Positions 33,116 to 62,713 of a DNA stretch of 64,000 nt are shown piece by piece; the first letter of the stretch is position 1; each line of letters begins with the position of its first letter. This DNA comes from Roseiarcus fermentans. Its GTDB lineage: Bacteria > Pseudomonadota > Alphaproteobacteria > Rhizobiales > Beijerinckiaceae. The stretch spans positions 1-64,000 of the forward strand of contig NZ_QNRK01000003.1 in assembly GCF_003315135.1 (NCBI RefSeq), read 5' to 3'. The notes under the pieces were generated by a model. It saw only the letters and a program-made list of their open reading frames with translations. It was not told the DNA's origin and searched no databases. The position numbers and the translations under genes are program-made.

Positions 33116-34065
33116 TGACCGACCTGTCCAGCAAGCTATCGCCAACGTCCGGATCCGTCGGCAATCCCGCCGTGGCTGCGCGCGCACGCAGCCACGGCCT
33201 GCGCCTGGTCTCGCTCGGCGCGATGGCGATCGCGTTCCTCGTCGCCTACATCCCGACCTACATCAGACTCGCAAACGGACCCTGGCAGACCGAGCAGGAG
33301 GGGCATGGGCCGCTGATCATGCTGGCGTCCGTGTGGCTCGCGTGGCAACAGCGGGAGAAACTCCGCAACCTTGTCCCGAGACCCGCGCCGGTCGCCGGCT
33401 GGATCGTCCTGATCGCGTCGCTCCTCGTCATGGCGGTGACCCGGTCGCAGGACATTCTGATGATCGAAACCGCGACCCAGATCCCTGTCCTGCTCGCGTG
33501 TCTCCTGTTGATCGGCGGTTGGCCGCTCGCCAAGGTCTTCGCGTTTCCTTTGGCGTTCCTGATCTTTTCAGTCCCGCCGCCCGGCTGGATCCTGGACGCT
33601 CTGACCGTGCCGTTGAAGGCGTGGGTGTCCGATGTGGTCACCAACCTGCTGTATGCTCTTGGTTACCCGATCGCCCAGAACGGCGTGATCATCATGATCG
33701 GCTCCTACGAACTGATGGTCAAGGACGCCTGTTCTGGAATGAACTCCATCTTCGCCCTGTCGGCGATCGGGATCTTCTACGTGTACGAATTCGTCCACAA
33801 CAACTGGATCCGAAAGGCGATTCTGATCCTGTCGATCATACCGATCACGGTCATGGCGAACCTGTTCCGCGTGCTTGCGCTGGTCTTGGGGTCCTACTAC
33901 CTCGGGGTCGACAGAGTCGAAGGGTTGTTCCACGATGTGACGGGCATTGCGCTGTTCGTATTCGCGCTTGTCCTGTTTTTCCTCCTCGACACCGTGCTCA
34001 TCGGGACCGGCTACTTGATCCGCCGGGCGTTTCCCCCTTCCCGAGGGGCGCCGAGCGCGACGTGA
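33115..34065 (+). CDS. xrtV: exosortase (probable XrtV)
   Basis: A 316-residue integral membrane cysteine transpeptidase with about eight TM helices. The exosortase signature residues are all present: Cys206 in KDACSGMNSIF, Arg252 in MANLFRVL and His273 in LFHDVTG. It recognises PEP-CTERM signals at the inner membrane. The subclass call rests on the next gene, which resembles the XrtV accessory protein, and on the PEPxxWA-type tail encoded at the left edge. Start is the ATG overlapping the preceding stop; a TTG three bases earlier is a less likely alternative. The C-terminal EpsI-type domain seen in EpsH-type exosortases is absent. Confidence 0.9.
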   Translation: MTDLSSKLSPTSGSVGNPAVAARARSHGLRLVSLGAMAIAFLVAYIPTYIRLANGPWQTEQEGHGPLIMLASVWLAWQQREKLRNLVPRPAPVAGWIVLIASLLVMAVTRSQDILMIETATQIPVLLACLLLIGGWPLAKVFAFPLAFLIFSVPPPGWILDALTVPLKAWVSDVVTNLLYALGYPIAQNGVIIMIGSYELMVKDACSGMNSIFALSAIGIFYVYEFVHNNWIRKAILILSIIPITVMANLFRVLALVLGSYYLGVDRVEGLFHDVTGIALFVFALVLFFLLDTVLIGTGYLIRRAFPPSRGAPSAT

Positions 34066-47000: not shown

Positions 47001-48122
47001 TCAGCGGCCGCGGCGCGGACGCCAGACGAGACGGCTGCTGACCGCGTAGTTCCAGACGACGCTGAGCGCGGCGCCCGAGAGGCCGGAAAGCCACCAGGTC
47101 TGGTGCGACCGGTACAGCATCGAGGCGACGTCGATGTTGGCCAGGGCGCCGACCCCGCAAGCCAGCGCGAAGGCGACGAAGCCGCCGATCATGCCGGGCC
47201 CGCGATAGCGGTGGGTTCGATAGGTGATCTCGTTGTTGAGCACGAAGTTGCTCCCCATGGCGACGATCGTGGCGACGATCTGCGCCGCCTGGAAGTCCGC
47301 CGGCCCGACAAGAGTGCGGTACGCCGACAGGACGAGGATGTGAACCCCGAGGCCGACGAGGCCGATGAGGGCGAACAGGACGAAGCGCACCGGCAGGGCG
47401 CCGCCGGTCGCGTGATGGATGACGAGACCCAGGAAGTCGAGGCCGACCAGGGGCGTGAGCTTCGACTCGCCGGCCGTGCGCTTGCGGAACCGGTACGGAA
47501 CCTCGACGATCCGCAGGCCGCCGCCGGCCGACAGGACCACGTCGACCAGGATCTTGAAGCCGTCCGGAGACAGGCGCGGCGCGAGCCGCGCGACGACGTC
47601 GCGCCGGATCATGAAGAAGCCGCTCATCGGATCGGAGACCGCGGTTCCGGCGATGCGATGGAAGACCCATTTGCCCAGATCGCTCAACGCCTGCCGCGAC
47701 GGGGACAGCCCGCCCTCGGCCTCCTCGCGGATGCGGGTCCCGACCGCGAGATCGCCGGCGCCGGCTTCGATCAGGCCGTACATCTTTGGCAGGATCGTCT
47801 CGTCGTGCTGCAGGTCGCCGTCGATGACGGCGACGAAATCGGCGCTCGACGCCATCCAGCCCTCGATCACGGCGCCGGCGAGGCCGGTCCGGTTCACCCG
47901 CCTGAGGCAGCGCATGCGCCGGTCGGAGGCCGCGATCGCGAAGGCGATGTCGGCCGTGCCGTCGGGGGAGTCGTCGTCGACGACGATCATTTCCCAAGGC
48001 AGGCCGTCGAGGACGGCCTTCATTCGTTCGAACAGCGCCGGAACGTTGGCGGATTCCCGGTAGGTCGGCACGATCACCGAAACGGTCGGCGACACGGACG
48101 CCGGCATCAGGTCTGAATTCAC
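47001..48122 (-). CDS. GT2 glycosyltransferase fused to a GtrA-like membrane domain
   Basis: 373 residues. Residues about 10-240 are a dolichol-phosphate-mannose-synthase-like GT2 domain: VSVIVPTYRESANVPALFER, VVDDDSPDGTADI, FVAVIDGDLQHDETILP and the SDPMSGFFMIRRDV segment. Residues about 245-365 are a four-helix GtrA domain (VRFVLFALIGLVGLGVHILV, VATIVAMGSNFVLNNEIT). Such proteins make undecaprenyl-phosphate sugars and help flip them, supplying GT39 transferases like the next gene. GTG at 48122 with AGAGG upstream is preferred; the ATG at 48107 is possible. Gap to the GT39 gene is 22 bases. Confidence 0.9.
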   Translation of the reverse strand: MNSDLMPASVSPTVSVIVPTYRESANVPALFERMKAVLDGLPWEMIVVDDDSPDGTADIAFAIAASDRRMRCLRRVNRTGLAGAVIEGWMASSADFVAVIDGDLQHDETILPKMYGLIEAGAGDLAVGTRIREEAEGGLSPSRQALSDLGKWVFHRIAGTAVSDPMSGFFMIRRDVVARLAPRLSPDGFKILVDVVLSAGGGLRIVEVPYRFRKRTAGESKLTPLVGLDFLGLVIHHATGGALPVRFVLFALIGLVGLGVHILVLSAYRTLVGPADFQAAQIVATIVAMGSNFVLNNEITYRTHRYRGPGMIGGFVAFALACGVGALANIDVASMLYRSHQTWWLSGLSGAALSVVWNYAVSSRLVWRPRRGR

Positions 48123-48144
48123 CTCGATCGCCTCTCGCGACGGG

Positions 48145-49659
48145 TCAACCGCCGGGCGCGCCCGGATAAGGGAGGGGAAGCGCACGCGTCAAGCGGTGAA
48201 CGGGAATGAGCGTGAGCGCAATCGCCGGTTCTCCGCCCCTCGTCAACAGGAATGCCTGCGGCGGGCCGAGCGAACCGGCGATCTCCGCCGCCCTGGCCGC
48301 GGCCGCGGCGGCGTCGGGCGCCCGGGTCGCCAGGACCCCGTCGCGACCCGCGAGGCCGCTCTCGCCGGCGACGAAAGCCCAGCCGCGCGGGTCGTCCGAG
48401 ATCACGAAAACGGGGGTCTCGGGTCCGAGCGCGAGCGCGATCTTGCCGGCGTCGGACCATTTTTGCGCCAGAACGAAGGCGGGGCGCGGCCGCATCGCCG
48501 GCGCGTCGCGAAGCGCGCCCCAGTCGAGCGCCTCGAGCGTCGGGTCCGCGGCGCCCGGGGCGAGGAGCCGCAGCGGCCAGCCGGTCCGGGCCTCGACGGC
48601 GACCAGTCCGGCGATCGCGGCCAGCGCGCCAGCGCAGGCCAACCCCCATCGGCCGAGCGCCCGGTCGGTCACGTGCGCGTCCTCGACCCAGGCGCCCATC
48701 AAGGCGAAGACGAAGAACCAGCCGGGCATCGCCCAGTGCGGCAGCCCGCGCGCGCCCCAGAGCGGCGTCAGGGTGAAGACGACGATGGGCGGCAGGGCGA
48801 GACAGAGAAGGAAGAGCCGCCGCTCGTCAGCGCGCTTCCGCCATGCCGCGATCAGGCCGAGCCCGAGCGGGGCCGCGAGCCAGGGCGACAGATAGGCGAC
48901 CTCGCCCAGCGCCATCGCGGCGACCTGCGCCGGCTTCAGGCCCGATCCCGCCGCCCCCCGCGCGCCCTGAAAGCCGAACGACGCCCAACCGTGCCGGGCG
49001 TTCCAGACGACGACCGGCGCGATCATGACCAGCGCCAGCGCGGCTGCGGCGTAAGGGGCGGGGTCGGCGAACCATCGCCGCCGCCCCGGGGAGATCGCGA
49101 CGAAGGCGAGGACCCCGACGACCGCGAGGGCGGCGCTGTATTTCGACAGGCCGGCGAGGCCGAGCGCGCCGCCGGCCGCGAGCCACAGCGCCCATTCCGT
49201 CGCCCGCCCGCTCCCTGGACCGAAAAACAGCTTCGCGAGCGCCCAGGCCGCCGCGGCGAGCCCGAACAGCAGCGGTCCGTCGGGCACGATCCAGGTCCCG
49301 GCGGAGGCGAAGAAGAACGGCGCGGCGTCGAGGCCGAAGACCGCGACGATCCCCGCCCGCGGGCCGAACAGATCCGCCGTCATGCGATAATAAATCCAGC
49401 CCGTGACGGCGAACAGGGCGAGGAACGGCAGGCGCGCCCCGACGCCCTCGCCGAAGGCGCTCGCCGCGGCATGGGCGATCCACTGATGCAGCGGCGGATG
49501 ATCGAAATAGGAGAGCGCCGGCGTGCGCGCGATCGCCAGGGTGTAGCTTTCGTCGACGCCGGGGCCGAGGAGGAGCGCGAAGACCAGCCGCGCGACGAGG
49601 AAGGCGGCGATAACGATCGCCGCCAGCCGGTCCGGGTTGCGGATCGTCCCCCCCGTCAT
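48145..49659 (-). CDS. GT39 family membrane glycosyltransferase
   Basis: A 504-residue PMT-type membrane enzyme. The first periplasmic loop has GVDESYTLAIARTPALSYFD followed by HPPLHQW (catalytic Asp/Glu context), followed by about ten TM helices and a C-terminal soluble domain. Its position directly before the GT2-GtrA gene suggests a donor-maker/transferase pair: the GT2 charges undecaprenyl phosphate and this enzyme transfers the sugar in the periplasm. The acceptor is unknown. Its ATG is immediately adjacent to the upstream hydrolase stop. The GT39 at 21248 has the same architecture. Confidence 0.88.
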   Translation of the reverse strand: MTGGTIRNPDRLAAIVIAAFLVARLVFALLLGPGVDESYTLAIARTPALSYFDHPPLHQWIAHAAASAFGEGVGARLPFLALFAVTGWIYYRMTADLFGPRAGIVAVFGLDAAPFFFASAGTWIVPDGPLLFGLAAAAWALAKLFFGPGSGRATEWALWLAAGGALGLAGLSKYSAALAVVGVLAFVAISPGRRRWFADPAPYAAAALALVMIAPVVVWNARHGWASFGFQGARGAAGSGLKPAQVAAMALGEVAYLSPWLAAPLGLGLIAAWRKRADERRLFLLCLALPPIVVFTLTPLWGARGLPHWAMPGWFFVFALMGAWVEDAHVTDRALGRWGLACAGALAAIAGLVAVEARTGWPLRLLAPGAADPTLEALDWGALRDAPAMRPRPAFVLAQKWSDAGKIALALGPETPVFVISDDPRGWAFVAGESGLAGRDGVLATRAPDAAAAAARAAEIAGSLGPPQAFLLTRGGEPAIALTLIPVHRLTRALPLPYPGAPGG

Positions 49660-50622
49660 TCAGGGCGCCGCCGGCGGCGAGGGCGATTGCGCGCCGGCGA
49701 CGAAGGCGTCGAAGGCGGCCCAGAACTGGTCGCGCAGCGCGTCGCGCTCGATCAAGATCTCGTGTTCGGCGCCCTCGATCACCACCAGGCTTCCCGGCGC
49801 GAGCCGGGCCGCGAACCGCTCGGCGGCGGCGCGATCGGTCACCCGGTCCGCGCCGGAGGCGACGATCAGCGCCGGCGTTCCGTCGCCCCAGGCGACCCGC
49901 GGATCGTCGAACCGGCGCATCGCCCGGAAGGCGGCGCGCGCCCAGCCGATCGTCGGGCCGCCGAGAAACAGGTGCGGCGCCTCGACCAGCAGGCGCGCGA
50001 TCCGGGCGAAGCGGCCAGGATCGGTGGTGAAGACGTTGCCTGCGAACGGCCGCGCCCAAAAGGTCTGTCGCGCGTTTCCCGGCGCGAAGGCGCGGCCCAG
50101 TCCGAGCGCGCCGAGCGCGTCGATCGCGAAGCGGGCGAAGCCGCGATGGTCGACGCCCTTGACCGCGATCATCGGCGAGGTCAGCACGAGCCGCTCGAAC
50201 GGACGCAGCCCGTCCGCGTCGAGGATGAGCAGGATCGCCGCCCCCATCGAATGGCCGAGGCCGATCCACGGCCGGGGACAATGGGGCGCGAGGACCTGCG
50301 CTGTGAAGGCGTCGAGGTCGCGTCCGAACTGGGCGAAGTCGTCGACATGGCCCTTGCTCGCGTCGCGAACCCGCCGCTCCGAGCCGCCCTGGCCACGCCA
50401 GTCGAGCGCCGCGACGGCGAAGCCGCGCGCCAGCAGGTCGCGCGCCACTTCGAAATATTTCTCGATGAACTCGCCGCGCCCGCCGAAGATCGCCACCGTG
50501 CCGCGCGCCGCGCCCGCCGGCGCCCAGCGCGCCGCGCGCAGCCGCACGCCGTCGGCCGTCCGGACGGCGTGCTCGATCGCGCCGGGAGGAGCCGGGTTGT
50601 CGCTCGTCGACGCCAGGGGCAT
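49660..50622 (-). CDS. alpha/beta hydrolase, lysophospholipase (PldB-like)
   Basis: A 320-residue monoacylglycerol lipase/lysophospholipase-type hydrolase with VAALDWRGQGGSERR, the nucleophile elbow GLGHSMGAAI, the acid in LIVASGADRVTDR and the His in VVIEGAEHEILIERD. It has no signal peptide, so it probably acts on membrane lysolipids from the cytoplasm. The RGQGxSxR motif is shared with PldB. Gap-free with the downstream GT39 gene, suggesting one transcript. Confidence 0.87.
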   Translation of the reverse strand: MPLASTSDNPAPPGAIEHAVRTADGVRLRAARWAPAGAARGTVAIFGGRGEFIEKYFEVARDLLARGFAVAALDWRGQGGSERRVRDASKGHVDDFAQFGRDLDAFTAQVLAPHCPRPWIGLGHSMGAAILLILDADGLRPFERLVLTSPMIAVKGVDHRGFARFAIDALGALGLGRAFAPGNARQTFWARPFAGNVFTTDPGRFARIARLLVEAPHLFLGGPTIGWARAAFRAMRRFDDPRVAWGDGTPALIVASGADRVTDRAAAERFAARLAPGSLVVIEGAEHEILIERDALRDQFWAAFDAFVAGAQSPSPPAAP

Positions 50623-51883: not shown

Positions 51884-52651
51884 TCAGGGCCGGGCGGTCG
51901 CGCGGAACGCCAGCAGGATGCGGCGTCGCAACGGCTCCGGAAGCAGCTGCTGAAACCGCGCGGCGTAATAGAGGCGGCGGGGAAACGCGATCACCGCCCG
52001 CCGGCGCGCCAGGCCGCGGCGAATGCGGCGCGCGGCGTCCTCGGCGCTCAGGAGGAAGGGCTTTGCGCTGTCGAACGAGCCGGTCATGTCGGTGTCGACG
52101 AACCCCGGGCAGACGACGCTGACCGAGACGCCGTCGGCGTGGTAGAGCGCCCGGGTCGCGAGCGCGAAGGCGACGATGGCGGCCTTGCTGGCGGCGTAGC
52201 TCGGCGAATCCGGCGGCGGCGCGAAGGCGGCGATCGAGCCGAAGAGGGCGATCTGTCCCTGCCGGCGCGCCCGCATGCGCGGCGCGAGCGGCGCCAGCGT
52301 GTTCATCATGCCGTTGAGGTTGACGTCGAACAGATCTTGCGCGCGCGTCAGATCCTCGACCGCGCCGGCGCGCGGCGTGACCATCGTCACTCCGGCGCTG
52401 GCGATCAGGCAATCGGTCGCGTCCGCTTCGTCGGTCTCGACCAGGAAAGCGCTGAGGGCGTCGCGGTCGCGCACGTCGATCCGGCCGATCCGCACCCGCG
52501 CGCCTTTCGCCTCCGCGAGGCGCGCCACCGCGCCGAGGGCGGCCGCGTCGCGCCCGATCAGGGCGAGCGCGACGCCGGGGGCGGCGTATTCGACCGCCAG
52601 CGCGCGCCCGAGACCCCTGCTCGCGCCGGTGATGACGATCGCCCGAGGCAT
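51884..52651 (-). CDS. short-chain dehydrogenase/reductase
   Basis: A 255-residue classical SDR. VITGASRGLGRALAVEYAAP holds the TGxxxGxG cofactor motif, then CLIASAGVTM (NAG-like, here SAG), Ser in LFGSIAAFAP, and catalytic SYAASKAAIVAF (Tyr-x3-Lys). The extended C-terminus ends with a Leu/Arg-rich segment (FPRRLYYAARFQQLLPEPLR), possibly a membrane-associating helix. The ATG at 52651 has GGGAG 6 bases upstream. It ends the nine-gene lipid-type cluster. In eukaryotes the 3-ketosphinganine reductase is an SDR, so a reductase role in this pathway is conceivable but unproven. Confidence 0.85.
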   Translation of the reverse strand: MPRAIVITGASRGLGRALAVEYAAPGVALALIGRDAAALGAVARLAEAKGARVRIGRIDVRDRDALSAFLVETDEADATDCLIASAGVTMVTPRAGAVEDLTRAQDLFDVNLNGMMNTLAPLAPRMRARRQGQIALFGSIAAFAPPPDSPSYAASKAAIVAFALATRALYHADGVSVSVVCPGFVDTDMTGSFDSAKPFLLSAEDAARRIRRGLARRRAVIAFPRRLYYAARFQQLLPEPLRRRILLAFRATARP

Positions 52652-52788
52652 GCGAACTCCCTTCCCACTGCTGTTTCGAAAACCGGCCGGGCTCGGCGCG
52701 CCCTGGCGAAGCGCCGGTCCCTGCGCCGGGACGCCTGCGAACCCTTCGCCGCCGGGACGCCCGCGCGGGGCGGACATGCGCTCGTGTT

Positions 52789-53958
52789 TCAGAACTGGCG
52801 GCGGCGTCCCGTCGCAGCCGACAGACGGGAGGAATCGGCCAGTTCGACGGACTGGCCTCGCCACGAATAGCTCGCCCTGACGAGCGCCACCGGCCACATG
52901 GCGAGCGCCATGCCGTCGCGAACCAGACAGGCCGCGAACGATATCGGCCGCCACGGCCAGCCCACGGCGACCGCCAGCCCGGCTTCGACTGCATACCACG
53001 ATCCGGCGATCATGAGCGCCGCCCAGAGCGGCGGCCAGCCGGCGCAGGCCGCCAGCAGGAGCCCGGCGACGAGCGGCGCGCCGACGGTCCCGAAGGCCTC
53101 GAGAAAAAACACCTGCGGAAAGGAGCGGCGGCGCAGCTGCGCCCAACGCAAATGGCGGTTCCAGACCGCCGTCGCCTCACGGCGGCCGAGCGGCTGCTCG
53201 AAGGGACGCTGAACCAGTCTGACCCCGAGGTTGGCGGCCCGGACGATCTTGGTCGCCGCCGAATCCTCGGCGACATCGAAATGCAGGGCCTGAAGACCGC
53301 CGCGGGCGGCGAGAAAGTCCCGGCGCACCAGCATCGCCTTGCCGTGGCCGAAGCCGGCGCCGAGGCTGTCGGCCGCGAGTTGCCAGCGCGCCTGGAACGT
53401 ATTCAAGAAAGCGCATTCGACATGCGCCCAGAATCCCGTGGGTCTCACGCCGATCGGGATGGAGCACGACAATCCGGTCGACTCGTCCCAAACCGCCAGC
53501 AATCTTTCGATGAGGTCGGAGGGAACGTCGACATTGCTGTCGACGATGGCGAGGTAGTCGGACCGGGCCGCCGCCCACCCTTTTTCCATGTTGTCGAGTT
53601 TCGGGTTGGCGGAACGGCGCTCGCGGCCGATCAGCAGCCTGGCGTTCACGTCGGGCGCGGAGGCGATCCGGCGACGAAGCGCGTCGAGGCCCGGCTCGTC
53701 GGCGCGGAACGCGCAGTACAAGAGTTCAAACCGGCTGTAGCCGATTCCGAACGCCGACAGCGCCGTCGCGACCTCTCCCGGTCCCAGCGCGACGATCGGA
53801 ACGATGACGCTCACGGACGGGCGACTTGCGAGGAGAGCGCCGTCCGGCTCCCTCGGCGAGCGCAGTCGCCGCACGGTCATGGCTGCCGTCGCCACGTGAA
53901 GAACGAAGGCGCCCGCCACGACCGCGACGAGCGACGCCTCGAGGATGAGAGCCGGCAC
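52789..53958 (-). CDS. GT2/GT21-type glycosyltransferase (ceramide glucosyltransferase/HpnI-like)
   Basis: 389 residues: an N-terminal membrane helix (LVAVVAGAFVLHVATAAM), then a GT-A domain with VSVIVPIVALGPG, ANPKLDNMEKGW, the metal-binding YLAIVDSNVDVP, FDVAEDSAATKIV, and the processive-type RHLRWAQLRR (x-x-R-W motif), then C-terminal TM helices. The order N-P-K-x-x-N ... D-S-x-x-D ... D ... R-x-x-R-W is that of GT21 enzymes, which glucosylate ceramide, and of HpnI in hopanoid synthesis. No other hopanoid genes are nearby. GTG start, 17 bases after the CDP-alcohol gene. Confidence 0.82.
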   Translation of the reverse strand: MPALILEASLVAVVAGAFVLHVATAAMTVRRLRSPREPDGALLASRPSVSVIVPIVALGPGEVATALSAFGIGYSRFELLYCAFRADEPGLDALRRRIASAPDVNARLLIGRERRSANPKLDNMEKGWAAARSDYLAIVDSNVDVPSDLIERLLAVWDESTGLSCSIPIGVRPTGFWAHVECAFLNTFQARWQLAADSLGAGFGHGKAMLVRRDFLAARGGLQALHFDVAEDSAATKIVRAANLGVRLVQRPFEQPLGRREATAVWNRHLRWAQLRRRSFPQVFFLEAFGTVGAPLVAGLLLAACAGWPPLWAALMIAGSWYAVEAGLAVAVGWPWRPISFAACLVRDGMALAMWPVALVRASYSWRGQSVELADSSRLSAATGRRRQF

Positions 53959-53975
53959 GGGGGAGGCCCCCTCGG

Positions 53976-54743
53976 CTAGGACCCTACGGTCGTCCGGTTC
54001 GCCGGCGCCGGTTCGCCCGCCGCGCGCAGGGTCACGAGATCCGGCCGGGCCGGCCGCGAGACTTGCTTGCGGCGCTCCAGGGCGGCGAAACGCGGACTGT
54101 CGATCAAAAAGGCCCTCGCGACGCTGGCGACGGCCACCACGAATACGATCATTCCCACCAGATCGAACAGCGTGAGCGTGCCGAACGGGCTGGTCACCGA
54201 GTGGATTCCCATCCCGGATTCGAACACGAACCCGGCCGCAATGACGATCCGCAGCTCCGTCGGTCCCCAGCCGAAGTAAGCGAGCTGGTGCGTGCGGCTG
54301 AACGGAAGTTGCAGAAGATCGTAAAACATCAGCAGCATGCTGCCGAGCAGGGCCATCAGCGCCGGGCTCAGATGCATGAAGGGCGACAGCCCCAACCCGA
54401 ACAGCAGGAGGAAATGCGACGCCACGTCGGCGAACTGGTCGAGATAGAATCCGTAGGCAGGCCGAGCCAATCCCCGCATCCGGGCGAGAGAGCCATCCAG
54501 AGAATCCCCGAACCAGTTGAGAAGCAGGCCGAGAATGGCGACATAGGCGAACTTGAGATTATAGTTGGCGGAAACGCATGCGAAGAAGACAACCGCCCCG
54601 CCGAACACGCCGAGCGAGGTCATCATGTTGGGTGTGACCCACTCCGGCAGGTTTTCGACGGTCCAGTTCAGGAGACGACGTTCCGGGCCGGAGAGCATGC
54701 TGTTGTGGATGCGGGTGTCATAATATGACCGCTTGAACGTCAT
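53976..54743 (-). CDS. CDP-alcohol phosphatidyltransferase family protein
   Basis: 255 residues with about six TM helices and an intact CDP-OH-P signature, D-x-x-D-G-x-x-A-R-x8-G-x3-D-x3-D, in NWFGDSLDGSLARMRGLARP followed by AYGFYLDQFAD. These integral enzymes move a phospho-alcohol from a CDP-donor to an acceptor alcohol, or the reverse. The N-terminal FKRSYYDTRIHNSMLSGPER is not shared with the housekeeping PgsA or PssA types, so the substrate may be special. In this context it could build a phospho-head group on a ceramide-like lipid (inference). ATG at 54743; the 233 bases upstream hold nothing recognised. Confidence 0.88.
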   Translation of the reverse strand: MTFKRSYYDTRIHNSMLSGPERRLLNWTVENLPEWVTPNMMTSLGVFGGAVVFFACVSANYNLKFAYVAILGLLLNWFGDSLDGSLARMRGLARPAYGFYLDQFADVASHFLLLFGLGLSPFMHLSPALMALLGSMLLMFYDLLQLPFSRTHQLAYFGWGPTELRIVIAAGFVFESGMGIHSVTSPFGTLTLFDLVGMIVFVVAVASVARAFLIDSPRFAALERRKQVSRPARPDLVTLRAAGEPAPANRTTVGS

Positions 54744-54976
54744 GATTTCAACCCGCCTCGACCCGGACCAGTCTTGACGCATACGACGGGATACCCCGTC
54801 CCCCCGCGCAGGACTCGATCCCGTGGAAATGCGTTCACTCGGCGCAAACACTGTCAATGCCACAGCAAGAGTAGGGCCGCAAGGCGCCGATTCCGGGCTG
54901 CGATCCAGGAGCCGCTGCGAGCCGACAACTCGGCGACGCCCGGGCGGCCCGCCAGCAGGCGTTCGTCGGCCGAACA

Positions 54977-56320
54977 CTAAAGCGCCGCCTCGGTCTTGCG
55001 GGCCTCCGAAGGCGCCCCGCAGCGACCCCTCTCCTCGGGCAACCCCGCCAGAAAGCTCTCGACCGCCGCAAGCGTCGACGCCCAGGCGGGGCCGCGGTAG
55101 CCGTTCAGGCGCGCCAGAGCCTGCGTGCGCGCTCCGCCGGCGTCGTCGGCATAGGCGCGGATGGCGGCGAGCCAGCCGGGACCGTCCGTCGGATCGATCA
55201 TCGTCATCCGGCCGCCGCCGATCTCGTGGAACACCGGAATGTCGGAGGCGATGACCGGGACGCCGGCGGCCAGCGCCTCGACGATCGGCAGGCCGTAGCC
55301 TTCGCCGAACGACGGCATCAGCAGCGCTCTCGCCCCGAGCATCAGCCGCTTCAGGCTCGGCGTCGGCAGTCCGGACACTTCGACGACGTGCCGACGCAGC
55401 GACACGCTGCGGTCGAGCAGGTCGATGATGTGCTCGTTCTCCCAGCCGCGTTCGCCCACGAGGACGAGCTTGGGCGCGCGGTCTCCCAAACGCGCGACCA
55501 GGTCTCGCCAGACTTGCAGAATCAACAGATGATTCTTGCGCGGCTCGATGGTGCCGCACATCACGAAATAGGGCGCCTCCGGGTCGGCGGTCGCGGCCGT
55601 CTCGACGGTCGAGAACGTCGGGTCGGGCGCGAGCGGCGCCACCAGAATCGGCAGGTCGGGCCTGCCGAGGCCGGCCATGTGACGCGCGAGCGCGGACCGC
55701 ACCGACTGACTGGATACGATCGCCGCGCGTCCGCGGCGCGCGACGCCCCTGAGTCTGTGCTCGTGCCGCCGATATTCGGTCGGCCGGAAATACTCGGGCA
55801 ACTGGAGCGGCAGCAGGTCGTGCAGGAAGAACACGCCGTCGATGGCGGGGTTGGCGCCGAGCCAGCGCAGGCAGAGGTCGAAATCGATCAGGTACTGGCT
55901 GACGTTCAGATAGACGGCGCCGTCGGCCGCGAGCCGCCCCGGCGCCTGCCCGAGCCAGACGCCGTGGCGCGCCATCCATCGCAGCGACTCGGCGAACTGG
56001 CCGGCGCGGCCCTTGGAGAAGCGGCGCTCCGGGGAATCGTCGCGCAGCGCTGCGGAGACGTGGGTCAGATGCCGGTCCTGATCGGGGACGACTTCCTCGC
56101 CCCAGTGGCGACGGACGAGGTCGACGACCTCGCGCGCCGCCGCCTGCGAATAGACCCGCGGACCGATCGGGGTCATCAGAAGGCCGTAGCCGGTTGCGCC
56201 CCGCGCGCCGAGGAAATGATCGGCGAAGGCGAAATCCACGCGATCGATCCCGTTGGGGGTCCGGTTGAACACGCGCGAGAACAGCCGGGTGAGGTCGTAC
56301 AGGACCGGACGCGAGGTCAT
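54977..56320 (-). CDS. GT4 family glycosyltransferase
   Basis: 447 residues, GT-B fold. The C-terminal donor domain contains PYFVMCGTIEPRKNHLLILQ, LVLVGERGWENEHI and the diagnostic MPSFGEGYGLPIVEALAAGV plus PVIASDIPVFHE. It lacks a signal peptide and acts in the cytoplasm, probably on a membrane lipid or polysaccharide intermediate. Its ATG overlaps the MaoC-like gene's stop (ATGA), tying a glycosyltransferase to the acyl-chain genes. The acceptor is unknown. Confidence 0.9.
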   Translation of the reverse strand: MTSRPVLYDLTRLFSRVFNRTPNGIDRVDFAFADHFLGARGATGYGLLMTPIGPRVYSQAAAREVVDLVRRHWGEEVVPDQDRHLTHVSAALRDDSPERRFSKGRAGQFAESLRWMARHGVWLGQAPGRLAADGAVYLNVSQYLIDFDLCLRWLGANPAIDGVFFLHDLLPLQLPEYFRPTEYRRHEHRLRGVARRGRAAIVSSQSVRSALARHMAGLGRPDLPILVAPLAPDPTFSTVETAATADPEAPYFVMCGTIEPRKNHLLILQVWRDLVARLGDRAPKLVLVGERGWENEHIIDLLDRSVSLRRHVVEVSGLPTPSLKRLMLGARALLMPSFGEGYGLPIVEALAAGVPVIASDIPVFHEIGGGRMTMIDPTDGPGWLAAIRAYADDAGGARTQALARLNGYRGPAWASTLAAVESFLAGLPEERGRCGAPSEARKTEAAL

Positions 56321-56823
56321 GCCGGCGCCGCCGCCGGAGGCGCGCCCTCCGGGGTCTGGAAGGCGTCGCGCAACCGGACGAGCGCGATCAGCGGATCGGC
56401 CGTGACGGCGGGCCGCGCGGCGCCTTCGACCTCGATGGCGGCGCGCGCCTTCACCAGGGTTTTCCCCGGCCCGAGCCGGTTGCGGGCCGTAACGACGAAC
56501 CGTCCGCGAAACCGCGCCCCGACCCGGACCGGATCGGCGAAGCGCAGCTTGTCGAGCCCGTAGTTCACGACCGCCGCTCCCGGGGGCAGGACGATCCGCT
56601 GCGCGAGGAGCGCCGGCATCAGCGAGACGAGGAGATACCCGTGCGCGATCGCGCCGCCGAATGGTCCCTCTCTGGCCGCGCGCTCCGGGTCGACGTGAAG
56701 GAACTGGGCGTCGCCGGTCGCCCGGGCGAAAAGGTCGACCTGCGCCTGCGAGAGCGCCCGCCAGTCGGTTGCGCCGAGATCGAGGGAACCCTCAGCGTCG
56801 ACGATGTCGCTCCAGCCGATCAC
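56317..56823 (-). CDS. MaoC-like (hotdog-fold) dehydratase
   Basis: 168 residues. ALSQAQVDLFARATGDAQFL followed by HVDPERAA carries the MaoC catalytic Asp and His positions (F-A-x-x-T-G-D ... H-x-D), with IAHGYLLVSLMPALL and the later YGLDKLRFADPVRVG. These are R-specific enoyl-CoA/ACP hydratases or 3-hydroxyacyl dehydratases. Next to a ketosynthase and an ACP it may complete a small acyl-extension set, but no ketoreductase of the FabG type is in this run except possibly the SDR at 51884. Gap of 9 bases to the ketosynthase gene. Confidence 0.88.
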   Translation of the reverse strand: MIGWSDIVDAEGSLDLGATDWRALSQAQVDLFARATGDAQFLHVDPERAAREGPFGGAIAHGYLLVSLMPALLAQRIVLPPGAAVVNYGLDKLRFADPVRVGARFRGRFVVTARNRLGPGKTLVKARAAIEVEGAARPAVTADPLIALVRLRDAFQTPEGAPPAAAPA

Positions 56824-56832
56824 CGGCGCCGC

Positions 56833-58032
56833 TCACGCGCCGCTGCGACGGAACGCCACCGTGGCGTTGAGGCCGCCGAAGGCGAACGAATTCGAGAGCG
56901 CGGCGTCGATCCGCATGGCGCGCGCGGCGTTCGGGATGCAATCGAGATCGCATTCGGGATCGGGCTGGTCGTAATTCGCCGTCGGCGGCGCCACCTGCCG
57001 GCGCATCGCCAGGACCGTGGCGACCGCTTCCAATGCTCCGGCGGCGCCGAGCGCGTGGCCGGTGACCGCCTTCGTCGACGACACGGGCGGGCGGGCGTCG
57101 CGGCCGAACACCCGGGTCATCGCCTCGGTTTCGGTGATGTCGTTCGAGCGCGTCCCGGTCCCGTGAGCATTGACGTAATCGATGTCGCCGGGAGAAAGAT
57201 CGGCGTCGCGCAGCGCCGCGAGGATGGCGCGGCGCATTCCGTCGGCCGACGGCTGCAGGAGATCGCCGGCGTCGGCGCTCGAACCGAACCCGGCCAGTTC
57301 GATCTCCGGTCTGGCGCCTCGGGCGCGGGCATGGTCTTCCGACTCGAGGACGAGCACGCCGGCGCCCTCGGAGATCACGAGCCCGTCACGGGTCCTCGAG
57401 AAAGGACGGCACTTGGTCCGGCTGACGATCTTCATCGCTTCCCAGGAGAGAAGCGAACCCTCGGTGAGAAAGGCTTCCGTCCCGCCGGCGATCGCGACGT
57501 CGACGACGCCAGCCCGGATCAGCGAAGCCGCGACGCCGAGCGCGTGCGTCGACGAGGCGCAGGCGCTCGACGTCACGAAGCACGGACCCTGTGCGCCGCA
57601 CGCCATCGACACCTGGCTCGCGCATCCGCTGACCATCCCGCGGACGATCGTCAGCGGATGCGGTTTTTTCCCTTCGAGATATACGCGTCTGTACTGCGCC
57701 TCGATCGCCTCCTGCCCGCCGGCCCCATTTCCAAGGACGACGGCGACGCGTTCAGGGTCCTCCACCGGGCATCGCATCCCGGCGTCGGCGAGCGCTCGGC
57801 AGGCGGCGGCGACGGCGAAGCCGCCGGACCGATCCAGGGCCGCGAGCGAGCGCACGGGCAAGCCCTGCAAGTGGGTCTCGTCTTCGACGGCGCCCACGCG
57901 CATGGACAGTCCGGGAGCGAGCTTCGGCGTGGAAAAATGACCCTCGCCGGCGACGAGCGAATCCCAGAACGCCTCCGGCGTAATCCCGGCGTTGGAAATC
58001 ACGCCGACGCCGGCGACCAAGACACGCCTCAC
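56833..58032 (-). CDS. beta-ketoacyl-ACP synthase (FabF/KAS II-like)
   Basis: A 399-residue thiolase-fold condensing enzyme. Catalytic Cys158 lies in TSSACASSTHALG, the two His in NAHGTGTRSND and TKAVTGHALGAAG, with the GGLNATVAF tail near the end. Start is GTG at 58032, overlapping the ACP stop (GTGA), so this KAS and the ACP are translationally coupled. It is almost certainly not the housekeeping FabF, which normally sits with acpP/fabG. It probably elongates or initiates a chain on the dedicated carrier. Confidence 0.92.
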   Translation of the reverse strand: MRRVLVAGVGVISNAGITPEAFWDSLVAGEGHFSTPKLAPGLSMRVGAVEDETHLQGLPVRSLAALDRSGGFAVAAACRALADAGMRCPVEDPERVAVVLGNGAGGQEAIEAQYRRVYLEGKKPHPLTIVRGMVSGCASQVSMACGAQGPCFVTSSACASSTHALGVAASLIRAGVVDVAIAGGTEAFLTEGSLLSWEAMKIVSRTKCRPFSRTRDGLVISEGAGVLVLESEDHARARGARPEIELAGFGSSADAGDLLQPSADGMRRAILAALRDADLSPGDIDYVNAHGTGTRSNDITETEAMTRVFGRDARPPVSSTKAVTGHALGAAGALEAVATVLAMRRQVAPPTANYDQPDPECDLDCIPNAARAMRIDAALSNSFAFGGLNATVAFRRSGA

Positions 58033-58343
58033 CCTTTTGGCCCCGCAACGATGGCGCGGGTCGCCAGATCGATGAAGTCGCCGATCGTTTCCAGCTTCGT
58101 GTCCGGATTGTTGGCGTTGAAGTCGATGTCGACCGTGTAATGCTCTTCCAACTCGAAGATGCATTCGATCGCATCGAACGAGTCGAGCCCGGTGTCCTTG
58201 AGCTCAGTCTGTTCCGTCCAGCCGGCGCTGTCCCGCTGCGTGCGCCGGGCGATGATGTCCTTCAATACCCGCGTGACGTCGGCGCGGATGTCTCCGCTTT
58301 CGGTCGTCGCGCCCGGCGCCTGCTCGCTATGATCTTTCGTCAT
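58029..58343 (-). CDS. dedicated acyl carrier protein
   Basis: 104 residues with a short disordered N-terminus. The phosphopantetheine site is Ser55 in KDTGLDSFDAIECIFELEEH; the motif is DSFD, not the DSLD of housekeeping AcpP. The following helix is acidic as expected. An ACP between a GNAT protein and a ketosynthase suggests it carries an acyl chain for the alpha-oxoamine synthase (59524) and/or the GNAT protein. ATG at 58343. Confidence 0.92.
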   Translation of the reverse strand: MTKDHSEQAPGATTESGDIRADVTRVLKDIIARRTQRDSAGWTEQTELKDTGLDSFDAIECIFELEEHYTVDIDFNANNPDTKLETIGDFIDLATRAIVAGPKG

Positions 58344-58393
58344 GTTCCGCCTGATTCCCGCCGATGACGGCCCCATTGTCGCAAACCGGCGGC

Positions 58394-59527
58394 CTAGAGC
58401 TGCTTTTCGTAAATCCTGAAAACTCGCGTGCGACGCGCAGGAAGGCTCATGACCGGCGCGAGGGCGGCCCGATTGTCCTCGAGGATCCAGCTGTACTCGA
58501 CCTCTTCGACGCCCGCCTTGCGGGCGTCGGCGATCGATCGCGCCATCAGCTGGCCCATCGCCGCGACGCCGACGATCGTGTCGCGCCACTTCTTGGCGGT
58601 CGCCGCGAGCAGGACGCGGGCTCGCCGGGTTCCCCGAACGTGCAGCCGCCAGAGCAGCGTGGGAAGGCCGGTCGGAAACAACTTTCCGTCGAGCCCCTGA
58701 AGCGCCTCGTTGACGTCGGGCACCTGCGCGATGACGGAGACGAGTTCGCCCTTGTAGGAGGCGAAATAGATCCAGCCCGGCCTCGCGATCGGCAGCATCA
58801 TCTTGCCGGTGAAATCCGCTTCCGCACGGCTCATCGGCAGCGCCCATCGATTCTCCGACCAGGCGTCGTTGTAGAAGTCGATCAGCGTGTGGAGGTCGCC
58901 GAAGAAATTGCGATAGGAGGCGGTGCGAATGTCGATCTTCGGCGCCCTCCCCTTCGCGATCTCACGCGCCACCCGTTCCGGGACGTTGGATTCCCGAACA
59001 GCGCACATCAGCGCGTAAAGATCCGTCGCCTTGACGTAACCCAAGGTCTCGATGGCGTCGCCATAGTATGGCGGGCAGTGATTCGTCTGCATGATGTGGG
59101 CCTGGTCGAAGCCCTCGACGAGCAGCCCGGTTTCTCCATTGACGTTCAGCCCGAATGGCCCGCGCGACAGGGCCATGCCCTTGTCGCGCAGGAAGGACTC
59201 GGCGGCCCCGAACAGCGCCGCAAAACAGGCCGGATCGTCGATCGATTCTATGAATCCGAAAAATCCGCAGCGATCCCCGTATTTTTTCTGGTGTCCGGCG
59301 TCGACCGTCGCCACGATCCGGCCGACCGGCTCTCCCGAGCGATAGGCGACAAACGGCTGAACGGCGTTCTCTTTCAGAAAAATCGACTTGGCGTCGAACA
59401 TTTGCCGCGCCTCGTCGTGCACCTGCTCGACCCACTGCCGGTTCGACGCCTCGGCCCGCCGCGCCGCGACGATGAAATCATCGAGCCCCGCGCGGTCGCG
59501 GACGGGACGTACTTCAAAGCCGTTCAT
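58394..59527 (-). CDS. GNAT-fold N-acyltransferase-like protein, candidate ceramide synthase (bCerS-like)
   Basis: 377 residues with FVAYRSGEPVGRIVATVD, CGFFGFIESIDDPACFAALF, LSRGPFGLNVNGETGLLVEG and CPPYYGDAIETLGYVKATDL. This order (G-R-I-A... G-F-F-G-F-x-E-x-x-x-D... R-G-P... G-L-L-V-x-G-F... P-P-Y-Y) is a distinct GNAT-like family. As I recall, the Caulobacter bacterial ceramide synthase bCerS belongs to the same fold group. The ATG overlaps the alpha-oxoamine synthase stop (ATGA), so the two are coupled. The proposed reaction, N-acylation of a sphingoid base, is inference from this pairing. Confidence 0.75.
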   Translation of the reverse strand: MNGFEVRPVRDRAGLDDFIVAARRAEASNRQWVEQVHDEARQMFDAKSIFLKENAVQPFVAYRSGEPVGRIVATVDAGHQKKYGDRCGFFGFIESIDDPACFAALFGAAESFLRDKGMALSRGPFGLNVNGETGLLVEGFDQAHIMQTNHCPPYYGDAIETLGYVKATDLYALMCAVRESNVPERVAREIAKGRAPKIDIRTASYRNFFGDLHTLIDFYNDAWSENRWALPMSRAEADFTGKMMLPIARPGWIYFASYKGELVSVIAQVPDVNEALQGLDGKLFPTGLPTLLWRLHVRGTRRARVLLAATAKKWRDTIVGVAAMGQLMARSIADARKAGVEEVEYSWILEDNRAALAPVMSLPARRTRVFRIYEKQL

Positions 59528-60870
59528 CGCGAACCCCGCTGGGCGACGGGCCCCTGCTCCGTCCCTGCCCGTCTCAACTCTTCAGCGAGGCAGAGAACTG
59601 CGACTTCGATCTGCTCTCGCGAATGCTCGGAGCTGATGAAGAAACGCAGTCGCGCCGCGCCGTCGCGGACCGCCGGGTAGATGATCGGCTGAACGTTGAC
59701 GCCCCGTCCGAGCAGATTGGAGCTCACCGCCACCGCCCGAACGGAGTCGCCGACGATGACGGGAATGACCGCCTCGCCGAGACTTTCGCCCAGGTCGAGG
59801 CCCTGCGAGCGGGCGAGGCGGCTGAACAACCCGGCGTTCTCGCGCAGGCGTTCGACGCGCTCCCCGCTCACCAGCAGCAGCCGATGGGCCGCCAGCGCCG
59901 CTGCGGCGAAGGCCGGAGCGAGCGCGACGCTGAAGACGAACCCGCCGGCGTTGTGCTTGAAAAATTCAATCAGGGTGGAGGACGCGGCGACGAAGCCGCC
60001 GCACGAGGCGAGCGTCTTCGACAGCGTTCCCATCCAGATGTCGACCGATCGCGGGTCGACGCCGAAGCGTTCGAACGATCCGCGTCCATGGCGGCCCAGA
60101 ACGCCCAGGCTATGGGCTTCGTCGATCATCAGCATGGCGCGGTGGCGCGTCTTGATGTCGACCAGCCTCGGCAGGTCGCAGACGTCGCCGTCCATGCTGT
60201 ACAGCCCCTCGGCGACGATCAGCACACGCTGATACAGGCCGCGCCGCCGCTGCAGCGCGGCGTCGAGCGCGTCGAGGTCGTTGTGCGGAAACGACCTGAC
60301 CTTGGCTCCCGACAGCTTCGCCCCGGCGATGATGCTGTTGTGCGCCAACGAATCGAACAGAATCAGATCCTTGGGGCCCATCAGCGCGCCGATTACGCTG
60401 ACGTTCGTCCCGTATCCGCTCACAAACGAGAGACTGGCGTCCTGGCTGTAGTGCTCGGCCAGCGCGCGTTCGAGATCGGTGTGGATTTTCCGTTCGCCCG
60501 CGACCAGCCGGCTGGCGGATGGCGACACCCCGTAGAGCCCCACCGCCTCCACCGCCGCTCGATGCACGTCGGGATGCTGATTGAAACCCAGATAGTCGTA
60601 GGAGGAGAAGTTGATCAGCGACTCGCCGTCGACGACGGTCGAGGCGCCGGCGCGGCCTTCATGGACCAGGAAGTACGGGTGTCGATGACCCAATCGCTTA
60701 ATTTCCGCAGAAAAGGCGCGCTGTTCCTGCATCCGAGGCAAGGTTTCAAAGCAATCGGTGGATATATCCGAGTCGACAGCGTCCTGCTTCTCCGAAAGGT
60801 CGCGGGGGCTGGAGGCGGCGGACGGACCTCTATATTTTGGCTCGTCGCCTGAAATCGGAAGTAAATCCAT
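59524..60870 (-). CDS. alpha-oxoamine synthase, candidate serine palmitoyltransferase
   Basis: 448 residues, PLP-dependent fold type I. Visible are NFSSYDYLGFNQHPDVHRAA, SASRLVAGERKIHTDLERAL, the His of FDSLAHNSIIAGA, the DEAHSLGVLGRHGRG Asp/His, and the PLP Lys285 in WMGTLSKTLASCGGF. The family condenses an amino acid with an acyl thioester: BioF, KBL, HemA or Spt. The C-terminus is intact. The ATG at 60870 is preferred; a GTG at 60900 would add ten residues. As first gene of an operon with its own ACP it is more like sphingolipid Spt than BioF, since no biotin genes are present. A roughly 60-residue N-terminal extension precedes the core. Confidence 0.85.
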   Translation of the reverse strand: MDLLPISGDEPKYRGPSAASSPRDLSEKQDAVDSDISTDCFETLPRMQEQRAFSAEIKRLGHRHPYFLVHEGRAGASTVVDGESLINFSSYDYLGFNQHPDVHRAAVEAVGLYGVSPSASRLVAGERKIHTDLERALAEHYSQDASLSFVSGYGTNVSVIGALMGPKDLILFDSLAHNSIIAGAKLSGAKVRSFPHNDLDALDAALQRRRGLYQRVLIVAEGLYSMDGDVCDLPRLVDIKTRHRAMLMIDEAHSLGVLGRHGRGSFERFGVDPRSVDIWMGTLSKTLASCGGFVAASSTLIEFFKHNAGGFVFSVALAPAFAAAALAAHRLLLVSGERVERLRENAGLFSRLARSQGLDLGESLGEAVIPVIVGDSVRAVAVSSNLLGRGVNVQPIIYPAVRDGAARLRFFISSEHSREQIEVAVLCLAEELRRAGTEQGPVAQRGSR

Positions 60871-61498
60871 CACTTGCGTCCGTTCATCGGAGACCGGCAC
60901 CTTCCCTTATCGCATTAAACGTTCCGCGCGCGCAACAAAATTACAAATTTTATACGGTGCTTGCTGCCCGTCCGTGGACGCCATCGCCCGCCTCCGCGAC
61001 GCCGCACGCACGTCATCGGAAGCCAAGTTACGGCGCACCGTCCAGACCCACGCATCCCGAGAACCGACGAGGCTCGTCATTGCGCCGCCTCGAGCCGCCA
61101 CCCTCGTCGGCCCAAGGCGGGCGCGCCCGGTTGTTTGATCGAAGTTTCGCCGCAATGTCAACCCGCTGCCCAAGCAACCGGAGTGAACCAAGGTATTGAT
61201 TCGCCTCTGCCGTGAGAAACGGCGACTACAGCGTCGAACATAGATATCGAAGCGATCTGAAATTAGTTTTACGGTAATTATCAGCAGTAGGTGACGCATC
61301 CAGAGCTGCCGCGTGAATTCCATATACGTCGACTTCCTGCGAAGAGGTGGTATCTCGTCGTCGCTAACATTGTCGCTTGGAAAGCGGAAGCTCCTCTCCA
61401 GCCGTGTCATTTTCGCAACACCCGTCTGCGTGTGCGCATCCGCGGGTCGGTGGGGGCGTAGCCAGAGCCGGTCCGGCTTGATAGACGGGGAAGTCGAA
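60871..61498. promoter_or_regulatory. divergent control region, oxoamine-synthase operon / Wza-type gene
   Basis: 628 bases without a supported gene. On the minus strand TTGCGC (60930-60935) and GATAAG (60906-60911), 18 bases apart, end 36 bases before the oxoamine-synthase ATG in an AT-rich patch. A second AT-rich patch lies at 61250-61290, upstream of the plus-strand export gene. The frame of the export gene is open from 61313, but that part lacks signal-peptide or domain character. Confidence 0.35.
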
Positions 61499-62713
61499 AT
61501 GGGGCCGTTCATGGGGCGATCAGGGAAACTGGGTCTTGCGGGCGCTCTTTCGGGCGCCGTTGTGCTTGCGCTCGCCGGATGCTCCTCGCTGCCGGACTCC
61601 GGACCGAGCGCAAAAGATGTTTCCGCCCGGCAGGTCGACACCGATCAGAGCCAGCGATATCTCGTCGTCGACATTACGCCGACGGCCGTCGAAGCCTTGA
61701 GGCGGCACGGATTCGGCAGCCTGTCGGCGCAGTTCGGCGACCGCCAGCCCTCGGCCGAACCCGCGATCGAAATTGGCGACGCCATCACGATCACGGTCTG
61801 GGAGGCCGCGGCCGGCGGCTTGTTCTCGTCCGCCGCCGCCACCACGACGAGCGGCGCTACGGCGAGCACCGGTTCGAACAGCGCGACGATTCCGGAACAG
61901 GTGGTCGGCCGCGACGGCGGCATCACCATGCCTTACGCCGGCCGAATCCACGTGGCGGGTCAGACGACCCGCGCCGTTCAGCAGCAGATCGAGCGCGCGC
62001 TGGAAGGCAAGGCGATCCAGCCGCAGGTCCTCGTCAACATCACCAAGACGGCCGGCGGCTCCGTCAGCGTCGGCGGCGAGGTCGCTGCGGGCGCGCGCGT
62101 GCCGCTGACCGTCAAGGGCGACCGGCTGCTCGACGTCCTGGCGACCGCGGGCGGCATCCGGGCGCCGGTGAACGAAACCTTCGTCGACCTTTCCCGCGGT
62201 TCGACGACTTCGCGCATTCCGCTGATCACGATCGTCAACAACCCGCGGGAAAACATCTATCTCCATCCCGGAGACACCCTGACGCTGGTTCACGACCCGC
62301 AGACGTTCATCGCCTATGGCGCGACCGGCTCCAACGCCGAAATCCCGTTCAACGCCGATGGAATTTCGCTCGCCGAAGCGCTCGCCAAGGCGGGCGGGCT
62401 GCAGGACAACCGATCGGACCCGCGCGGCGTCTTCATCTTCCGCTACGAGCCCGATTCGGTCGCTCGCCAGTTCGCGCCGACCAGTCCGCTGGTCCGTCCC
62501 GGCCGCCTGACGCCGGTCGTCTACCGGCTCGACCTCACCGACCCGAACAGCTTGTTCCTGCAGCAGAACTTCCGCATGGCCAATCGCGATTTCCTCTACG
62601 TGTCGAACTCGCCCTCGACGGAAGTGCAGAAGGTGTTCGGGATCATCGGCGGCGGCATCGGCACGATCGGCTCGGTGGCGAGCATCGCGAGCGCCACCTC
62701 GACGCTCAAGTAA
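61499..62713 (+). CDS. polysaccharide export outer-membrane lipoprotein (Wza-like)
   Basis: 404 residues. A lipoprotein signal with lipobox LALAGCSS (Cys near residue 30) directs it to the outer membrane. The poly-export domain has IEIGDAITITVWEAAAGGLF, VGRDGGITMPYAGRIHVAGQ and VLVNITKTAGGSVSVGGEV, then SLBB-type repeats (VPLTVKGDRLLDVLATAGGI, EIPFNADGISLAEALAKAGG). It forms the exit channel for exopolysaccharide. The ATG at 61499 has GGGGAAG 6 bases upstream. It may serve the polymer initiated by the transferase at 31649, but Wzc/Wzx/Wzy genes are not adjacent. Confidence 0.92.
   Translation: MGPFMGRSGKLGLAGALSGAVVLALAGCSSLPDSGPSAKDVSARQVDTDQSQRYLVVDITPTAVEALRRHGFGSLSAQFGDRQPSAEPAIEIGDAITITVWEAAAGGLFSSAAATTTSGATASTGSNSATIPEQVVGRDGGITMPYAGRIHVAGQTTRAVQQQIERALEGKAIQPQVLVNITKTAGGSVSVGGEVAAGARVPLTVKGDRLLDVLATAGGIRAPVNETFVDLSRGSTTSRIPLITIVNNPRENIYLHPGDTLTLVHDPQTFIAYGATGSNAEIPFNADGISLAEALAKAGGLQDNRSDPRGVFIFRYEPDSVARQFAPTSPLVRPGRLTPVVYRLDLTDPNSLFLQQNFRMANRDFLYVSNSPSTEVQKVFGIIGGGIGTIGSVASIASATSTLK

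Follow-up and report, generated by a model that had tools for sequence, protein, structure and literature searches.

The window analyzed here is a stretch of 64,000 nucleotides from Roseiarcus fermentans (assembly GCF_003315135.1, contig NZ_QNRK01000003.1, positions 1 to 64,000), and the subject of this work is a putative lipid operon of nine intact codirectional genes at positions 51884-60870, located on the minus strand and read from 60870 downward according to open-frame inspection. The operon starts with an alpha-oxoamine synthase (AOS, 448 aa, 59524..60870, PF00155), followed by a tandem-GNAT N-acyltransferase (377 aa, 58394..59527), a dedicated acyl carrier protein (ACP, 104 aa, 58029..58343, PF00550), a beta-ketoacyl-ACP synthase (KAS, 399 aa, 56833..58032, PF00109 and PF02801), a MaoC-like dehydratase/hydratase (168 aa, 56317..56823, PF01575), a family 4 glycosyltransferase (GT4, 447 aa, 54977..56320, PF00534), a CDP-alcohol phosphatidyltransferase (255 aa, 53976..54743, PF01066 with a complete motif), a GT21-family glycosyltransferase (389 aa, 52789..53958, PF13506 at 160 bits) and a short-chain dehydrogenase (SDR, 255 aa, 51884..52651, PF00106). 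Pfam families were thus assigned for eight of the nine proteins, the exception being the GNAT protein. The KAS, MaoC and GT21 genes have GTG starts, and the starts of the AOS, ACP, KAS, CDP-alcohol transferase and SDR genes were picked within longer frames. The nine codirectional genes and the overlaps and short gaps reported in the original prediction, which was made from the sequence alone, were confirmed on the frame check, and larger gaps of 233, 17 and 137 bases lie in the last part of the operon.

The AOS had been expected to be a Caulobacter-type Spt, an assignment that was rejected on both model scores and trees. The protein matched 11 NCBIfam models, including those of Spt, BioF, Kbl and ALAS, and stayed below the cut-off of each, with 269.7 bits for the Spt model NF047599 (cut-off 500), 307.5 for NF047600 (640), 225 for NF047603 (670), 361.8 for the BioF model TIGR00858 (426) and 153 for the CqsA-type model PRK07179 (428). 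The Spt positive controls from Caulobacter sp. S45 and E. coli BL21 reached 648 and 599 on NF047599, and the AOS proteins linked to a polyketide synthase (PKS) in Methylocella silvestris, the genomes G008 and G018, and one plasmid each of Pseudomonas and Paraburkholderia scored 260-282, similar to the window protein; a protein of a further clade, here called AOS2, scored 279. Two trees were built, a first one of 78 rows, in which 16 of the 45 rows of the Spt-near-bCerS group were kept and the other 29 dropped for size, and a careful one of 41 rows, which included the Pseudomonas and Paraburkholderia PKS-AOS pairs and left out the E. coli BioF row. In both, the window AOS grouped with four same-genus AOS (five rows, support 99 and 100/98) and nested within a PKS-linked (SgaB-like) clade that is sister to AOS2 and separate from Spt, including the E. 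coli BL21 Spt and the Spt proteins beside bCerS (99 and 100/99). Identity as a canonical Spt was thereby ruled out. A grouping with BioF or Kbl, which the original prediction had named as refuting, was not seen either: Kbl also stood apart, and the single E. coli BioF row, present in the 78-row tree only, lay outside the window clade. The placement of this row is unsure because of a very long branch, but the TIGR00858 score also speaks against BioF. The conserved positions of the aligned AOS proteins, SK and DEAHS among them, are kept in the window AOS. Hence the protein is a member of the PKS-linked clade by sequence, for which serine-dependent synthesis of 3-ketosphinganine is predicted.

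AOS matches at E<=1e-80 occur in 110 of 397 genomes of the order, and 40 loci of the PKS-linked clade were fetched from high-scoring rows, picked for many genera and not at random. In 36 of these 40 loci, some of them on cut contigs, a PKS match was located no more than 3 kb from the AOS; the exceptions are L142 (with a PKS piece at a distance of 4.3 kb), L156, L166 and L172. Weak KAS matches within 15 kb of the AOS in L154 and L162 (33% and 28%) probably stem from the KS domains of PKSs. Among named organisms, clusters that combine PKS, AOS and GNAT genes were found in M. silvestris TVC, Methylopila turkensis and Hansschlegelia quercus. The full PKS frames of kin comprise about 2,480-2,550 aa, and Pfam analysis of two of these PKSs, both on stretches cut within the KS, gave the order KS-AT-DH-(weak MT)-ER-KR-ACP.

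No type I PKS was found at the window locus or anywhere in the assembly of R. fermentans (6.79 Mb, 90 contigs, 99% complete), where the best match to the PKS query (1e-32) covered only the ADH-type part and only three matches to the KAS query were obtained. The query came from G017, itself one of the seven positives among 15 genomes tested (G001, G004, G008, G009, G013, G017 and G031), which carry full or fragmented PKS homologues at 49-56% to the query. The PKS was present in seven of the eight tested genomes bearing the GNAT gene, the eighth being the window genome, and was not found in the seven tested kin that lack such a match (four of these genomes being less than 90% complete); of the nine genomes in which GNAT was matched, all but G022 and G024 were covered by the test.

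The same locus can be followed in same-genus genomes by its flanks, namely a Wza-like polysaccharide export lipoprotein gene (61313..62713, plus strand, Pfam Poly_export/SLBB) and a set of GT2, PMT-family and alpha/beta hydrolase genes (47001..50622, minus strand, the latter two assigned by Pfam and GT2 by eye). In G008, the GT2-PMT-hydrolase genes and the Wza-like gene, at 62-71% to the window flanks, are followed by PKS-GT4-CDP-SDR-GNAT-AOS, and the Wza-like homologue that directly precedes the PKS matches the window protein at 69%. In G004, eight flank frames over ~13 kb at 72-91% to the window lead to AOS, GNAT, SDR and CDP-alcohol transferase genes, with two further flank matches (a short doubtful frame at 59% and a partial Wza match at 58%), and the PKS pieces are on other contigs. 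Across both loci the GT2, PMT and hydrolase genes match at 62-80%, and the window SDR matches its homologues at 87% in G004 and 69% in G008. Of the synteny that the original prediction proposed to look for, an AOS/GNAT/GT4/CDP/SDR locus was indeed recovered in G008, with a PKS there rather than ACP-KAS-MaoC. No KAS closer to the cassette KAS than 42%, which is in the FabF range, was found in six same-genus genomes (G001, G002, G004, G008, G009 and G010), four others of the genus being left out of this search. Elsewhere in the window, a membrane protein resembling exosortase/EpsH by eye (33112-34065) is encoded beside a sugar-transferase-like gene (31649-33115), and neither Rfam at the gathering threshold nor ARAGORN gave a match in the window.

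The assignment of the KAS is based on its Pfam domains, catalytic residues and two trees, in which it fell within a clade of ACP-KAS(-MaoC) cassettes (support 96 and 98 with nine rows, or 99 and 100 with wider sets) and outside the NodE, FabF and AOS2-near KAS groups, two NodE rows standing apart (100). The housekeeping FabF and NodE itself were both ruled out by tree as identities of this KAS, and a separate FabF-like gene is present at C18 (41%). The closest KAS in the order (58-67%) belong to the ACP-KAS-MaoC cassettes L173, L174 and L182 or the ACP-KAS cassettes L175-L179, in which an ACP is likewise the KAS partner; no AOS was found in the 11-18 kb fetched around each of them. Compared with rhizobial nod loci, the KAS matches at 44-45%, the MaoC protein at 42% (Rhizobium leguminosarum) and the ACP at 31-34%, and the window ACP and KAS genes are adjacent in the NodF-NodE order. 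The names nodF and nodE in the loci L211 and L212 were given from context, the records reading acyl carrier protein and ketoacyl synthase family protein, and the MaoC gene of L212, recorded as a MaoC family dehydratase, is presumably nodN. Tailoring of the acyl chain had been proposed for the KAS/MaoC pair; a role on the acyl chain is still the likely one, but the term understates the share of KAS, ACP and MaoC, because relatives have a whole PKS in that place.

Several related cassettes have neighbors of their own. L173, L174 and L182 sit among type I secretion genes, with a C39-peptidase ABC transporter, HlyD, an outer membrane efflux protein and a class III aminotransferase next to L182 by Pfam, and a small frame with a GG-type leader in L174 by eye; these cassettes possibly serve the acylation of a secreted peptide. 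The KAS gene of L182 (8315-9501) is split over two frames, seen as two tblastn pieces, owing to a frameshift or an assembly error. The ACP-KAS pair of L175 (8193-14843) adjoins two large frames in which RTX-like GGDDTLTGG repeats can be seen by eye. An ACP-KAS-SDR-GT21-GT2 cassette was seen in the same-family loci L121, L122, L123 and L194, with parts not seen in some, and its ACP has DLKS instead of the DSL motif by eye.

The GNAT protein matched no Pfam or NCBIfam model. A structure model built from 23 sequences (pLDDT 90.2, pTM 0.88) retrieved the tandem-GNAT fold in a fold search, and the protein grouped with bCerS on a tree that includes E. coli YghO, in agreement with the GNAT-like ceramide synthase of the original prediction. 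Of 570 relatives found, 80 loci were kept, and the nearest named match in this set is M. silvestris TVC with 48% full-length identity, followed by 31-39% to 21 other loci including Caulobacteraceae. A bCerS homologue adjoins the AOS in the window, in six loci of the family (L022-L025, L027 and L041) and in L042 and L046. The GNAT protein is accordingly classified as a bCerS homologue from tree and model; the tandem-GNAT fold shows no substrate, and N-acylation of a sphingoid base is a prediction.

For the remaining enzymes, GT4 homologues adjoin the PKS in G008, G009, G013 and M. silvestris, and homologues of the CDP-alcohol transferase are encoded near the AOS and GNAT genes of kin. The GT21 protein scored 137.7 on the NCBIfam HpnI model, under the cut-off of 310. 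In 11 of the 40 loci an SDR match is no more than 3 kb away from the AOS, and the presence of SDR homologues at the G008 and G004 loci without a cassette KAS favors a ketosphinganine reductase over a KAS partner.

Two samples, comprising 397 genomes of the order and 385 of the class, revealed no second genome with the gene combination of the window. With limits of 1e-80 for AOS and 1e-78 for KAS and rows read by eye, the window was the only case in the order of a PKS-clade AOS with a cassette-type KAS at most 50 kb away on the same contig, and the two genes are about 100 kb apart in G053. In the class sample, which applied a KAS limit of 1e-100 and shares at least five genomes with the order sample, only G552 besides the window has both genes close together (11.6 kb), and its AOS (45%) is in the AOS2 range. 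KAS genes were located within 15 kb of the AOS in seven of 24 AOS2 loci (three within 3 kb), so another lineage shows recurrent pairing of an AOS with type II ACP-KAS genes. The AOS2 clade was nevertheless rejected as the source of the window system because the window AOS and KAS both group in other clades. Separately, a bCerS homologue lies within 3 kb in seven of the 24 AOS2 loci, of which L185 and L194 have ACP-KAS too, and the AOS2 clade with ACP-KAS may constitute another type II sphingolipid-like route.

Taken together, the product of the nine-gene set is most likely a ceramide-like membrane lipid with added decorations, and with rather better than even confidence the operon descends from a PKS-type (SgaAB-like) sphingolipid locus that lost its iterative type I PKS and gained a dissociated ACP-KAS-MaoC cassette in its place. 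The sphingolipid-like product with head-group enzymes that was originally proposed is thus probably right, with a different AOS from the Spt assumed. Directly established are the gene content, the folds and families, the clade membership, the lack of a detected PKS in the assembly and the same locus in kin, whereas every enzymatic step, the serine substrate, the acyl chain, the head group and the replacement in this lineage are inferred. The dedicated ACP would carry the growing chain, which would be elongated by the KAS and dehydrated by the MaoC protein, with housekeeping reductases filling in. The AOS would then condense the acyl-ACP with serine to 3-ketosphinganine, whose ketone would be reduced by the SDR, and the bCerS homologue would N-acylate the resulting base to a ceramide. 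Finally, the CDP-alcohol transferase may add a phospho-alcohol head and the GT21 and GT4 enzymes sugars.

A more far-reaching version is offered tentatively, at clearly less than even chances: a NodFEN-like type II cassette would represent a third acyl supply besides AasR/AcpR and the type I PKS, having displaced the PKS at the same locus, and would provide a long-chain base of an unusual kind, either very long or trans-2/poly-unsaturated like NodFE products, with phospho and sugar heads. Deletion of nodE in Rhizobium sp. IRBG74 is described as abolishing the polyunsaturated chains (PMC5080398, in which two enzyme labels are swapped).

The replacement of the PKS is weakened by several points, the chief doubt being that the cassette could serve the GNAT protein rather than the AOS. 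The PKS does not adjoin the AOS in the same-genus genomes G004 and G009, so the locus is fluid, and G013 is a weak witness since its closest GNAT gene stands alone and its AOS belongs to the AOS2 clade. L156, L166 and L172, all from one family, have a PKS-clade AOS with neither an adjoining PKS nor a nearby KAS, and loss or separation of the PKS is therefore not unique to the window; of the three genomes behind them, G108 gave no PKS match at E<=1e-40, and G257 and G291 gave only partial matches (34% and 32%). In relative-rate comparisons, which are neither independent nor corrected, an excess of changes on the window side at p<0.05 was found in six of six comparisons for the CDP-alcohol transferase, 10 of 16 for GNAT, five of 16 for AOS and none of four for SDR. 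For AOS the skew is weak (p between 0.007 and 0.83 in its 16 comparisons), and a change of acyl donor has thus left no clear mark on this enzyme. Besides, the window AOS, GNAT and CDP-alcohol transferase are more diverged from kin than the flanks, and the block may consequently have come in whole from an unsampled donor. The link to PfSgaAB, the PKS-AOS pair of Pseudomonas fluorescens MYb115, is by shared architecture rather than by direct comparison with the PfSgaB sequence.

The doubt about the GNAT protein corresponds to a distinct, though unlikely, explanation, in which the cassette supplies the GNAT protein with a special acyl chain, as NodF/NodE do for NodA, and the AOS uses ordinary acyl-ACP or acyl-CoA, the product still being a ceramide. 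The ACP and KAS genes directly follow the GNAT gene, rhizobial nod loci hold an ACP-KAS pair close to an N-acyltransferase gene, the cassette proteins resemble NodF, NodE and NodN at the percentages given above, and GNAT shows the clearest excess of window-side changes after the CDP-alcohol transferase. However, same-genus kin keep the same GNAT protein, although the six genomes searched for a cassette KAS gave none, and the gene absent in the window, the PKS, is the usual neighbor of the AOS in the order.

Horizontal import of the whole AOS-to-GT21 block from an unsampled relative that already used an AOS with ACP-KAS-MaoC, without any replacement in this lineage, is given a smaller chance still. 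The window proteins are at 59-62% (AOS), 53-56% (GNAT) and 38-45% (CDP-alcohol transferase) to the same-genus copies, which are at 69-85%, 63-70% and 57-63% among themselves, and the window SDR and eight of ten flank frames are at 72-91% to G004. This divergence would be explained by either adaptation to a new acyl donor or block import. On the other hand, the AOS and GNAT proteins still group with the genus, on long branches, and the extra change falls on GNAT and the CDP-alcohol transferase, weakly on the AOS and not on the SDR. The function of the nine genes would stay unchanged under such an import.

A product other than a sphingolipid is improbable. With another amino acid or a short chain, the AOS would yield another amino-ketone or else a lipid anchor serving the neighboring polysaccharide exporter, in line with its scores below the cut-offs of all matched AOS-type models, Spt included, and with the polysaccharide export genes on the flanks of the operon, which recur in some kin (a KpsT-like gene there being labeled by eye). 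It is opposed by the bCerS homologue that adjoins the AOS in the window and the eight loci listed above, and by the strong preference for serine described for the PKS-linked AOS of known activity (PMC12134224). As a separate matter, the MaoC protein and SDR may be a mere extension of ordinary fatty acid synthesis, but this is the less favored reading of the SDR given its homologues in G008 and G004, where no cassette KAS was found.

Provided that the replacement is right, one megasynthase was apparently exchanged for three small enzymes at one locus, an exchange made testable by the homologous flanks and same-genus comparisons. Oxoamine synthases would then be able to change acyl donors, fatty acid chemistry of the Nod-factor type would be tied to sphingolipids, and ceramide-type lipids would be predicted in relatives such as Methylocella, Methylopila and Hansschlegelia. 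No report of a KAS and an Spt in one operon was found in a literature search limited to one collection, the matches having fungal or Alternaria titles or dealing with a fungal PKS.

Among the known systems, the iterative PKS and AOS of MYb115 (PfSgaAB) are described as making sphinganines and, by mass, probable phosphoglycerol sphingolipids, the AOS having serine palmitoyltransferase activity with serine and acyl-CoA and strongly preferring serine over alanine and glycine, and an SDR in the cluster being proposed as the ketosphinganine reductase (PMC12134224). By the authors' account in that paper, PKS-derived bacterial sphingolipids were first reported in 2025; Black Sea sphingolipids are treated in PMC11334938. 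The window operon shares with PfSgaAB the PKS-linked kind of AOS, the SDR and a product of probable sphingolipid type, and differs in having ACP-KAS-MaoC and no PKS and in adding a bCerS homologue as well as CDP-alcohol and glycosyl transferases.

In the Caulobacter pathway, AasR/AcpR are reported to feed Spt, followed by N-acylation by bCerS (PMC9386255, PMC11087976 and PMC11324152). The N-acyltransferase of the bCerS family and a dedicated ACP are common to both, whereas the window AOS is not an Spt and its ACP is of the cassette type with its own KAS and MaoC. No match to AasR, AcpR or CerR, the last of which the original prediction had named for comparison, was found in the 20 kb around the operon (L034) by tblastn with E. 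coli BL21 queries at E<=1e-4, the rest of the genome not being searched.

The NodF-NodE(-NodN) system is similar in the ACP-KAS order, the MaoC gene of the L212 nod locus and the N-acyltransferase gene close by, and is different in that the window KAS falls outside the two NodE rows and no nodABC-like genes occur among the nine genes or the examined flanks. The AOS2-ACP-KAS loci (L185, L186 and L191-L195) likewise have an AOS within 15 kb of a stand-alone ACP-KAS pair, with a bCerS homologue in L185, L193 and L194, but belong to another AOS clade (support 99-100) and to other KAS clades than the window operon.

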